The notes beneath the pieces were generated by a model that was not told the origin of the DNA, searched no databases, and saw only the letters and a program-made list of their open reading frames with translations. A stretch of DNA of 64,000 bases. It comes from Butyrivibrio sp. (GTDB taxonomy: Bacteria; Bacillota; Clostridia; Lachnospirales; Lachnospiraceae). The DNA lies in NCBI GenBank assembly GCA_022486625.1, contig JAKVKH010000006.1, positions 44,345 to 108,344 of the forward strand, in the 5' to 3' direction. Shown here piece after piece: positions 41,818 through 46,046 of the stretch (position 1 is the first letter of the stretch; each line of letters starts with the position of its first letter). Made by a program: the position numbers and the translations under genes.

Positions 41818-42264
41818 TCAGGAGATGAAATCGGCATCATTATCTGTGTACTTTTCATCACAGTATTTGCAACGGTAGATTTCGTTCGCTTCATCCGCGA
41901 GATAGAAGATATGGGGAAGTTCCTGCTCGATGGAGGAAATACAGCGGGGATTATGACAGCGGATAACGCCGTGGATTTCCCTGGGAAGGATCAGAGCTCT
42001 TTTTTCTACGATGACACCATCCTTGATGACGTTTACGGTAATGTTATGATCAATGAAAGCCAGAACGTCAAGGTCCAGGGTATCGATATCGCATTCCACT
42101 TTCAGAATATCTTTTTTGCCCATCTTGCCGCTTCTGGCATTCTTGATGATGGCAACGGTACAGTCGAGTTTATCAAGGCCGAGGTGATGATAGATGGCCA
42201 TGCTCTTGCCGGCCTGAATATGATCAAGTACGAAACCTTCTTCAATTTTTCCTACGTTTAACAT
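41818..42264 (-). CDS. pyrI: Aspartate carbamoyltransferase regulatory subunit
   Basis: MLNVGKIEEGFVLDHIQAGKSMAIYHHLGLDKLDCTVAIIKNARSGKMGKKDILKVE; C-terminal CHNPRCISS...CKYCDEKY Zn site. Confidence 0.95.
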   Translation of the reverse strand: MLNVGKIEEGFVLDHIQAGKSMAIYHHLGLDKLDCTVAIIKNARSGKMGKKDILKVECDIDTLDLDVLAFIDHNITVNVIKDGVIVEKRALILPREIHGVIRCHNPRCISSIEQELPHIFYLADEANEIYRCKYCDEKYTDNDADFIS

Positions 42265-42280
42265 AATAACCTCCTGTGGT

Positions 42281-43237
42281 TCAATAGGTTTTTAACAGTC
42301 CCTCATTCATGTGTTCATCGGTCAGATCCAGCAGTGTCAGAATCAGTGCCATACGGACATAAAGACCGTATTGAACCTGGCGGAAGTAGGCAGCTCTTGG
42401 GTCATCATCAATATCAACGGATATCTCATTGACTCTCGGAAGCGGATGCAGGACGAACATTTCCTTTTTGGCCAGTTGCATCTTGGCTTTGTCCAGTACA
42501 TAGAAACCCTTTAAGCGGATGTAATCTTCTTCGTTGAAGAATCTTTCCTTCTGCACACGGGTCATATACAGAAGATCAAGTCTTGGCATGACGTCTTCAA
42601 GACGGACAACTTCTTCATAGGTAATGCCTTTGGAAGAAAGCATTTCTGTAATATAATCCGGGACGCGCAGTTCCTGTGGTGAGATAAAGATGAAATGTAT
42701 GTTCTGATATCTGGAGAGTGCATTGATCAGGGAGTGCACGGTGCGGCCGAATTTCAGGTCGCCGCACAGACCGATGGTAAATCCGGAAAGGCTGCCGTAG
42801 AGTGAACGGATGGTCAGCAGATCGGTAAGGGTCTGCGTCGGATGCTGATGACCGCCGTCACCTGCGTTGATGACCGGGATCAGTGATTTCTCTGCTGCAA
42901 CCATGGGCGCGCCTTCCTTGGGATGACGCATGGCGCAGATATCTGCAAAGCAGGAGATTACGCGGATGGTATCAGATACACTTTCACCCTTGGAGGCAGA
43001 AGAATTCGAAGCGTCTGCAAATCCGATGGTTTTGCCGCCAAGGCGCAGCATTGCAGTTTCAAAACTGAGTCTGGTTCTGGTGCTCGGCTCATAGAAACAG
43101 GTTGCCATGATCCTGCCGTCACAGGCATGTGCGTAGGCTCCCATATTATGTTCAATATCACCGGCCACGTCGAATAACCGGTCCAGTTCGTCCGTACTGA
43201 AATCAAGCGGGCTCATCATGTGTCTTAATCTGCTCAT
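42281..43237 (-). CDS. pyrB: Aspartate carbamoyltransferase catalytic subunit
   Basis: [43 protein letters not shown]. Confidence 0.96.
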
Positions 43238-43307: not shown

Positions 43308-43342
43308 AAAAAAAATCGAAGAGAAAATTAATTCTCTTCGAT
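43308..43342 (-). terminator. Attenuator-type intrinsic terminator in pyrBI leader
   Basis: On - strand ATCGAAGAGAA-TTAATT-TTCTCTTCGAT-TTTTTTT: 11-bp perfect stem with U-tract, between leader peptide and pyrB. Confidence 0.9.
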
Positions 43343-43346
43343 AAAA

Positions 43347-43454
43347 TCAGTGAAAATAAAAATGGAAACAGAAGGAGGAATAAAAATAGAAATGGTTCAT
43401 GCAGGACTGATGATGTAAACGCATTGACTTCATACGATGATCACAGACTGACAT
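43347..43454 (-). CDS. pyrBI leader peptide (35 codons, U-rich 3' half)
   Basis: RBS AAGGAGG then ATG...TGA encoding MSVCDHRMKSMRLHHQSCMNHFYFYSSFCFHFYFH*. Last 15 sense codons are 38/45 pyrimidine (27 U). Stop codon lies ~5 nt before the terminator stem. Confidence 0.78.
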   Translation of the reverse strand: MSVCDHRMKSMRLHHQSCMNHFYFYSSFCFHFYFH

Positions 43455-43561
43455 GATAACCTCCTTCATCAGCAGAATGTTTCTGCACCCTGCCTTTTTC
43501 TCCGCTTTATAATTCCGGTTCTGATAAATGCTCCGGGGCTTCTTTCATTTCAATTCTTCTT

Positions 43562-43590
43562 ATGATAACATGATCGTAAAGGTGAATCAA
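43562..43590 (-). promoter_or_regulatory. Putative pyrBI promoter TTGATT-17-TATCAT
   Basis: - strand hexamers at 43590-43585 and 43567-43562. Confidence 0.55.
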
Positions 43591-43635
43591 TAATAAATTT
43601 TACAGGATAAAATTCTTTTGACAGGGAGAAGTCAG

Positions 43636-45015
43636 ATGGCAAAAAGTCATGAACTGGATATGACCAAGGGAAATCCTTCCGAACTGATTCTGAAATTCAT
43701 GGTTCCGCTGGTGATCGGCAATGTATTTCAGCAGTTCTATAATATGGCAGATACAATTATTGTCGGCAGATTTGTAGGCGTGAGAGCGCTTGCCGCAGTT
43801 GGTGCAACAGGTACGATCATGTTCCTGATCCTGGGATTTCTGATGGGACTTCTGCAGGGATTTACCGTCATCACTGCGCAGCGATTCGGAGCGGGAGATG
43901 AAAGCGGAGTGAAGCAGAGTGTTGCCAATGCGGCAATTCTTTCTGTAATCATGACGGTGATCTTCACAGTGATCAGTGTACGCTTTATGGATGATCTGCT
44001 GCATCTGATGAATACATCGCAGGATATGTACGACATGGCCAGAACCTATATCATTATTATCTGTTATGGTATCGGTGCCAGTATGCTGTATAATCTGCTG
44101 GCAAGTCTTCTGCGCGCAGTCGGAAACAGTAAGGCACCGCTTTATTTTCTGATTATTTCTGCAGTTCTTAATATTTTTCTGGATCTGTTCCTGATCATTG
44201 TGATCCCGATGGGTGTTGCAGGAGCAGCGGTGGCAACAGTTCTTTCACAGGGGATCTCCGGAATTTTGTGCCTGATCTACATGATCCGCAGAGTCCCGCT
44301 CCTTATTCCTCGCAGACAGGACTGGCATCTGGACTCGCAGTGCAGCCGCAATCAGATCTCCATCGGACTTCCCATGGCACTGCAGTTTTCAATCACAGCA
44401 ATCGGTACGATCATGGTACAGTCTTCCCTGAATCTGCTGGGATCTGTTGCTGTTGCTGCATATACAGTAGCCTGCAAGGTAGAACAGCTTTTTACACAGG
44501 TCTTTTCTTCCATTGGTATGACCGATGCAACCTATGCGGCGCAGAATATGGGCCTTGGGAATATAAAGCGCATCAAAAAAGGCGTTGTAATTTCTAACGC
44601 CTATTCAGCCATTTATGCAGTGATTATATATGGGTGTCTGTATTTTACCTGTCCGTTTTTTACAAAAATCTTCATCAGCAGTTCGGTGACGTCTGATCTG
44701 CCGACGATCATCGGTTATGTGGAAACATATATCCATTTGTGCGGACTGTTCTTTATTCCGCTTGGCATGATCTTTATTTTCCGTAATATCATGCAGGGCT
44801 GCGGTTATTCTTTCTGGCCGATGATGGGCGGTGTTATGGAACTGGGATGCCGCGCTGTTGTGGCCATTCTGGCGGCCAGAAACGGAAGCTTTGCCGGAAT
44901 CTGCTGGGCCAATGCAAGTGCATGGCTGATCACCGGTATCTTTCTCTGGATCTGTTATTTTTTCGTAATCAGAAAAATTGAAAAGAAACATTCCTGTACA
45001 GTGAGCGGGACATAA
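43636..45015 (+). CDS. MATE family efflux transporter
   Basis: LILKFMVPLVIGNVFQQFYNMADTIIVGRFVGVRALAAVGATG. Confidence 0.94.
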   Translation: MAKSHELDMTKGNPSELILKFMVPLVIGNVFQQFYNMADTIIVGRFVGVRALAAVGATGTIMFLILGFLMGLLQGFTVITAQRFGAGDESGVKQSVANAAILSVIMTVIFTVISVRFMDDLLHLMNTSQDMYDMARTYIIIICYGIGASMLYNLLASLLRAVGNSKAPLYFLIISAVLNIFLDLFLIIVIPMGVAGAAVATVLSQGISGILCLIYMIRRVPLLIPRRQDWHLDSQCSRNQISIGLPMALQFSITAIGTIMVQSSLNLLGSVAVAAYTVACKVEQLFTQVFSSIGMTDATYAAQNMGLGNIKRIKKGVVISNAYSAIYAVIIYGCLYFTCPFFTKIFISSSVTSDLPTIIGYVETYIHLCGLFFIPLGMIFIFRNIMQGCGYSFWPMMGGVMELGCRAVVAILAARNGSFAGICWANASAWLITGIFLWICYFFVIRKIEKKHSCTVSGT

Positions 45016-45020
45016 GTCTG

Positions 45021-46046
45021 TCACTTTATCTGCGGATTGAACTGCGTCGGGGCAGAGGATCCGTCAAGTGGCATGTGATAGGTGGTTACGTCATCACCGT
45101 ATTTCATGAAGTATACATATTTTGAGGTCAGATTGATACTGTTGTAAATACCATCAATAATGACACGATTGTCAGAACCATCCAGTTTCATCATTTTGAG
45201 TGCCGGATGTTCCTGTGAGGAATAGGCATAGTAAATGTAGGTGTCATTCAGGTTGAAAAAATCGATACGGTCCTGTGTGATGACCTGGCTTGTACCGTCC
45301 CGCAGATCCATCCGGCATAATCTGTAATTGCCGGTGACATCCATATAATACAGGTAGTTGCCCTGCACGACAGGGTCATAGTAATAGCCATTCGCCAGTG
45401 TGGAGACGCTGTCGCCATGCAGAGTGTCCATAGTGTGGAGGTTCTGTTCCTTATTGACACCATTATAATAAAGCAACCCGTTTACGTAGCAGGCGGGATT
45501 GATCATCTCTTCGGTGACTTTGGACTGTTTGGTCTTATCAATTCGAATCTTATACAGAGAGCCTCGGTTGGGCTCCTTGGACTGGTAGTACAGATAACTG
45601 CCGCACAACTGCATGCTGACGGTAAAGTCACGTACAAGACAGTTCATATTCTTACCGTTCTCCTTTGCCCGGTAGATACCATATTCATTAACGAAATGCC
45701 CAAGACCTGAGGACTGTTGAGAGGCAGAAGAATCCATATAGAAATAGATGTATTTGCCGCCGGCATTGATATATTTTGTATTCAGGGAAGTAAGCTGTTT
45801 CACATTAGATTCATCAACATTCATGGAATAGAGGCAGTGACTGCTCTGAGAGTTGGAAAAAAATACCTTACCGTTATTTTCACAGAAATAGCCATAGTTG
45901 TTCAGATTGCCGGCTGTGTTACCGGTGGTATTATCCGGATTCATTTTTACGGAATTTCCCATCAGATAAAATACGCCGCCGCCAATGAGCGCTGCCATAA
46001 TCAATATAAAGCCAATAACAATTTTTGCATTCCTGGACATATGCAC
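45021..46046 (-). CDS. DUF5050-like beta-propeller membrane-anchored protein
   Basis: N-terminal TM and repeated YxYFxN / LYxMN-type strands (CLYSMNVDESNVKQLTSL, YLYYMDVTGNYRLCRMDLRDG). Confidence 0.8.
   Translation of the reverse strand: MHMSRNAKIVIGFILIMAALIGGGVFYLMGNSVKMNPDNTTGNTAGNLNNYGYFCENNGKVFFSNSQSSHCLYSMNVDESNVKQLTSLNTKYINAGGKYIYFYMDSSASQQSSGLGHFVNEYGIYRAKENGKNMNCLVRDFTVSMQLCGSYLYYQSKEPNRGSLYKIRIDKTKQSKVTEEMINPACYVNGLLYYNGVNKEQNLHTMDTLHGDSVSTLANGYYYDPVVQGNYLYYMDVTGNYRLCRMDLRDGTSQVITQDRIDFFNLNDTYIYYAYSSQEHPALKMMKLDGSDNRVIIDGIYNSINLTSKYVYFMKYGDDVTTYHMPLDGSSAPTQFNPQIK

Follow-up and report, generated by a model that had tools for sequence, protein, structure and literature searches.

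The window, a stretch of 64,000 nucleotides from the genome of a rumen-type Butyrivibrio, carries in front of pyrBI what we take, with a probability of a little over three in four, to be a translation-coupled transcription attenuator of the Escherichia coli pyrBI type, adjusting pyrBI expression to UTP. In E. coli, control of pyrBI by ribosome-coupled UTP attenuation is textbook knowledge. The arrangement recurs with unrelated sequences across Lachnospiraceae, a Gram-positive family, and from this recurrence we judge that these bacteria probably sense low UTP as E. coli does, by the ribosome catching up with RNA polymerase.

All elements lie on the minus strand and are given in window coordinates. 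Inspection of the sequence and a promoter scan found a sigma-70-type promoter with a TGn extended -10 (43562-43590); its -35 element, TTGATT (43590-43585), and its -10 element, TATCAT (43567-43562), are separated by 17 nt, and from their position transcription is predicted to start near 43555. A gap of about 100 nt separates the promoter from the Shine-Dalgarno sequence AAGGAGG (43460-43466), which precedes a leader ORF of 35 codons, MSVCDHRMKSMRLHHQSCMNHFYFYSSFCFHFYFH* (43347-43454), with like architecture in other Lachnospiraceae. The final 15 codons (43350-43394) are U-rich and G-poor, with 27 U, 11 C, 6 A and 1 G, or 38/45 pyrimidine (84%); this base count, and a synonymous U bias across leaders, lead us to propose a tract of UTP-sensitive slow elongation or pausing. 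Counted over both strands, 0.06% of 45-nt segments have a T fraction of at least 0.60. The stop codon is 4 nt from the hairpin of an intrinsic terminator, the putative attenuator, a perfect stem of 11 bp with a loop of 6 (43315-43342; -14.4 kcal/mol on folding), followed by a U-tract of seven T (43308-43314).

Downstream of the terminator are pyrB, for the aspartate carbamoyltransferase catalytic subunit (42281-43237; PF02729/PF00185, and TIGR00670 and NF002032 over cut-off), and pyrI, for the regulatory subunit (41818-42264; PF01948/PF02748, and NF002063 over cut-off). A preliminary description of the locus had named the promoter, the Shine-Dalgarno sequence, the 35-codon ORF, the exact composition of the tail, the perfect hairpin with its U-tract, and pyrB-pyrI; each is present as described, and only its distance of about 5 nt from stop to hairpin had to be corrected, to 4 nt.

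Two further pairings were seen around the Shine-Dalgarno sequence. As GAAGGAGG (43460-43467, minus strand) it is perfectly complementary over 8 nt to CCTCCTTC (43371-43378, minus strand) in the U-rich tail of the leader, a pairing that could block re-initiation after the first ribosome; no such complement was seen among those other leaders that were read by eye. Immediately 5' of the Shine-Dalgarno sequence, in the host genome, is a small hairpin, GCAGAA-ACA-TTCTGC (about 43470-43496, minus strand), that could be a promoter-proximal pause or an element governing access to the Shine-Dalgarno sequence.

A set of 225 pyrB upstream regions, mostly from Lachnospiraceae and with uneven genome sampling, was scanned with a fixed rule. 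The rule called for a Shine-Dalgarno sequence, a start codon, an ORF of 14-70 codons, a stop lying at most 20 nt ahead of a terminator-like hairpin or 90 nt past it, and a T fraction of at least 0.45 in the 45 nt that precede the stop or the hairpin. Leaders passed at 10 of the 225 loci, whereas the mean over 15 dinucleotide-shuffle sets was 0.07; the leader-terminator arrangement before pyrB is not a product of chance. As a host background we drew about 0.6 Mb of the genome on both strands (1.22 Mb of strand), where 342 terminator-like hairpins gave two matches, one of them the window leader itself. With the T rule dropped, this background yielded 34 ORFs with a median T of 0.29, the best after the window leader reaching 0.47.

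When the T rule was dropped at the pyrB loci as well, nearly all the extra matches lay in or beside upstream coding genes, had low T, or began with GTG or TTG. The ATG leaders ending at the foot of the hairpin are U-rich with or without the threshold, so U-richness is a property of the leaders and not of the filter alone. Two possible leaders that fail the rule were also seen: one at L205, MFQITICKNRLLPFHFHKTITTHKR, which ends inside a long imperfect terminator, and one at L144, a GTG ORF of 15 codons with little U at a strong terminator.

The ten passing loci come from Butyrivibrio (the window, L001; L018; L039; and L061, which is Butyrivibrio sp. MC2013) and from other Lachnospiraceae (L063, L088, L090, L104, L150 and L154). 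A later sample added another Butyrivibrio leader in a two-contig genome (L269). In two genera that were sampled, leaders occur at 3/5 and 16/30 loci, with L337 and L349 recognised by eye in addition. A comparison of Lachnospiraceae pyrB leaders, suggested by the preliminary description, thus did find U-rich ORFs adjoining a terminator in many genomes. The peptides (MSVCDHRMKSMRLHHQSCMNHFYFYSSFCFHFYFH, MSLRAGLFNTRYFQKLSGFAIRIFSIFFSHLYFIYS, MATREHNDCFRFFQMPVAICFLLFVQLIILMVTY, MAKLLYSDNKYLACNMCIFHSYFCIFVLYFSL and others) are similar in their endings and otherwise unrelated or fast-diverging, and are not conserved even within a genus; MSVCDHRMKSMRLHHQSCMNHFYFYSSFCFHFYFH matches no Pfam or NCBIfam family. 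At all ten passing loci the promoter has the form TTGnnn-17-TATnnT and its -10 is extended by TGn; this uniformity is somewhat overstated, since TTG, TGn and a 17-nt spacer were given preference in the scoring. The attenuator hairpin is weak in one genus (7 bp, -5.8 kcal/mol).

Leaders are distributed patchily: most Lachnospiraceae pyrB loci have none, nor do most sister species of Butyrivibrio, in which another gene is immediately 5' of pyrB. They are scattered on the pyrB tree, requiring 13 changes by parsimony, at least five of them forced by well-supported branches. None was found at 40 loci sampled outside the family but within its order, although at a few of these it is not certain where pyrB starts. 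Presence differs with the class of the upstream gene (225 loci): nitroreductase, 0/102; DUF5050, 1/45; other, 9/78. Most loci lack a leader, largely because pyrB there directly follows a nitroreductase or DUF5050 gene.

In most Butyrivibrio sampled the DUF5050 gene is immediately 5' of pyrB. It is still upstream in the window (45021-46046, minus strand), and a divergent MatE transporter gene (43618-45015, plus strand) intervenes, so that pyrB is left with a promoter and leader of its own. Many Lachnospiraceae loci, L047, L053 and L102 among them, have a nitroreductase gene before pyrB, and a TCGAAGAGA/TCTCTTCGA terminator often lies between the two, 3-10 nt past the nitroreductase stop. These terminators may also act on pyrB, but as alternative attenuators they were set aside, since the gene ends before them are not U-rich. 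Another Butyrivibrio group (L011, L015, L017 and L019) has a TAGACA-TATAAT promoter 40-80 nt before pyrB and no leader; its A-rich start region might permit another kind of control, at the start site or by slippage.

Comparison among the leaders indicates which of their features are kept. In the tails the U fraction ranges over 0.44-0.71; for pyrB of the same genomes the range is 0.23-0.31. At synonymous third positions, NNT makes up 248 of the 295 NNY codons in leader tails (84%) and 2201 of 4260 (52%) in pyrB of the same genomes, an odds ratio of 4.9 with the same direction in 23 of 24 loci, although the test is slightly circular, as candidates were required to have T of at least 0.40. Since the bias is synonymous, U itself appears to be favoured, not an amino acid. 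Among homologous leaders of one genus the indels, as we read them, have lengths divisible by three (about 3, 6, 12, 15 and 21 nt), and in three close leader pairs the substitutions across the codon positions number 3/6/4, 2/3/1 and 2/2/3. With indels in frame and substitutions on all codon positions, we conclude that the reading frame is kept while the peptide drifts. In one of these pairs, L330 and L332, a one-base shift near the end of the ORF moves the stop by a few codons, and it remains at most 10 nt from the hairpin.

These comparisons bear on two other readings of the leader. One is amino-acid attenuation, in which the leader would sense charged tRNA-Phe, tRNA-Tyr, tRNA-His or another, the ribosome stalling at those codons. 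In its favour, the 15 codons of the window tail include 6 for Phe, 3 for Tyr and 3 for His, but the tails vary freely and share no amino acid: 150 tail residues include 31 F, 21 S, 19 Y, 19 I and 13 L, the L063 tail is rich in Leu and Ile, and that of L018 in Asn, Tyr and Leu. The U bias extends to synonymous sites, and pyrBI is not an amino-acid operon. Nor does the window hairpin have an unusual upstream antiterminator partner, the upstream pairing of its 5' arm being 5 against a shuffle mean of 7.0; in a few relatives the antiterminator pairing is mixed, weak or borderline. Taken together these points make amino-acid attenuation quite improbable.

The other holds that the ORF is an ordinary small-protein gene with its own terminator, that pyrB has a separate promoter, and that their neighbourhood is incidental. 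Short distances from stop to terminator are reported to be common in species with runaway transcription (PMC7858274), and terminators of the same type, TCGAAGAGA, are found in Lachnospiraceae also 3' of ordinary genes upstream of pyrB. Against this, the peptide is not conserved within a genus, though the frame is, and recurrence before pyrB is far above the shuffled expectation. The promoter scan found none between the hairpin and the start of pyrB in the window, and no promoter-like pair was present in this interval at any of 26 loci, where it measures 17-149 nt and at several loci leaves just 17-28 nt of room. We therefore regard pyrB as dependent on read-through, and an incidental small-protein gene as very unlikely.

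PyrR attenuation, protein-dependent as in the Bacillus pyr operons, is the known form of pyr regulation in many Firmicutes. The PyrR RNA element, RF00515, had no match in the host genome (a Bacillus subtilis control was positive), Rfam had no match in the window, and no PyrR protein scored above cut-off in 19 genomes, which include every leader-bearing genome among the first ten. The best score of the PyrR model NF003549 was 26.6 bits, against a cut-off of 138. The best PyrR-model match falls in an ORF read as hypoxanthine phosphoribosyltransferase; the phosphoribosyltransferase ORFs read out resemble hpt, apt, xpt, upp and pyrE by eye. PyrR control of this operon thus has next to no chance of being correct, in agreement with the preliminary description, which had seen no PyrR anti-antiterminator-like structure.

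The promoter, ORF, tail and terminator can be read directly from the sequence; for UTP attenuation by a coupled ribosome, we infer further that the leader is translated, to which the in-frame indels lend indirect support, that pausing depends on UTP and that the ribosome masks the hairpin. Transcription would begin near 43555 and proceed through the leader ORF. When UTP is plentiful, the polymerase would cross the U-rich tract fast, ahead of the pioneer ribosome; with the polymerase ahead, the hairpin would form and transcription would end before pyrB. When UTP is scarce, the polymerase would be slowed or paused in the U-rich tract and the leader ribosome would close up; held at the stop, 4 nt from the stem, it would cover the 5' arm of the hairpin and allow read-through into pyrBI. 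The peptide product would be immaterial, and what would matter are an open frame, U-rich codons and the position at which the ribosome ends.

An intrinsic terminator is reported to be repressed when a ribosome occupies a stop codon a few nucleotides 5' of it, and pyrBI has been discussed as the case in which pausing sets coupling (PMC4824070). The distance of 4 nt in the window fits such repression, since the effect is lost only beyond about 27 nt (PMC4824070). The B. subtilis NusG pauses at TTNTTT (PMC7819879), and NusG pausing may have a role in the leader. This motif is present in 23 of 25 leaders, with 46 occurrences observed and 54.6 expected from base composition; it is not enriched beyond the U content and was rejected as the conserved element, so we treat it as hypothetical.

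A different use of the same tail would be as a Rho target. Lagging ribosomes would then let Rho terminate, leader translation would be the shield, and UTP would act through polymerase speed or have no role. The host encodes Rho, the window tail is 84% pyrimidine, and in Bacillota with runaway transcription Rho is reported to target pyrimidine-rich RNA (PMC13323073). Yet each of the leaders called is adjoined by an intrinsic terminator with a U-tract, and several tails are rich in U and A and poor in C (C fraction 0.07 in L018 and 0.04 in L063). We consider Rho-dependent control improbable, and prefer UTP attenuation at the intrinsic terminator.

For Bacillota as a phylum, 'runaway' transcription is predicted, in which the polymerase is not coupled to translation (PMC13323073, PMC7858274). 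A recurrent leader that, on our reading, works only if the ribosome can catch up under UTP shortage bears directly on this view. The stop-to-terminator distance in the host genome, considered as a proxy for runaway transcription, proved too sparse to serve as one (median 22.5 nt, n = 22). There is perhaps an even chance that UTP-sensing pyrBI leader peptides arose repeatedly from unrelated sequence in Lachnospiraceae, convergent with enterobacterial pyrL, and that the gap between polymerase and ribosome is their UTP gauge, termination being the default as transcription runs away and UTP shortage alone letting the ribosome close the gap.

A frame-preserving leader of this kind would be a natural reporter of the polymerase-ribosome gap in anaerobic gut Firmicutes, and would make it testable whether and when coupling occurs there. 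It also points to a way in which pyrimidine synthesis may be controlled in Lachnospiraceae that lack PyrR. Such a regulatory ORF can arise and be rewritten quickly, since nothing but its composition and frame matters. Our search of the open-access literature found no report of pyrBI-type UTP attenuation in Firmicutes; priority is uncertain, as subscription literature was outside its scope.

Among known systems, the PyrR attenuators of Bacilli (RF00515) are likewise terminator-based pyr control in Firmicutes, but work with a PyrR protein and an RNA element, neither of which was found here. Leader-peptide attenuation in Gram-positive bacteria is represented by the amino-acid leaders of hisS/hisZ in bacilli (PMC2965389) and of ilv-leu in Staphylococcus aureus, the latter having an antiterminator fold, with its terminator 52 nt past the stop (PMC5794164). 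Those leaders have conserved codons for the sensed amino acid, whereas in the Lachnospiraceae pyrB leaders it is U that is kept, and not the peptide.

The closest likeness is to E. coli pyrL-pyrBI: the operon is the same, a short ORF led by a Shine-Dalgarno sequence carries a U-rich tract immediately 5' of an intrinsic terminator, pyrB comes next, and there is no alternative antiterminator. The leader is 35 codons in the window and 44 in pyrL; there is no recognisable peptide similarity, the phylum is different, and the promoter here is of the TGn type. The enterobacterial logic proposed in the preliminary description is supported by the recurrence, the failure to find PyrR and the keeping of U, and departs from its model in geometry: pyrL extends through the hairpin and has its stop shortly before pyrB, whereas the window ORF ends 4 nt before the hairpin, at its foot, and most Lachnospiraceae relatives have their stop from -9 to +14 nt from the hairpin. 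ORFs that run through as in E. coli do occur (L150, L331, L344, L345, L346, L349 and L362), the last five in a genus where L340 stops at the foot, and since both geometries occur in that one Lachnospiraceae genus the difference looks evolutionarily easy. The best reading of the window leader is that of a variant that functions like pyrBI attenuation and is not a member by descent.
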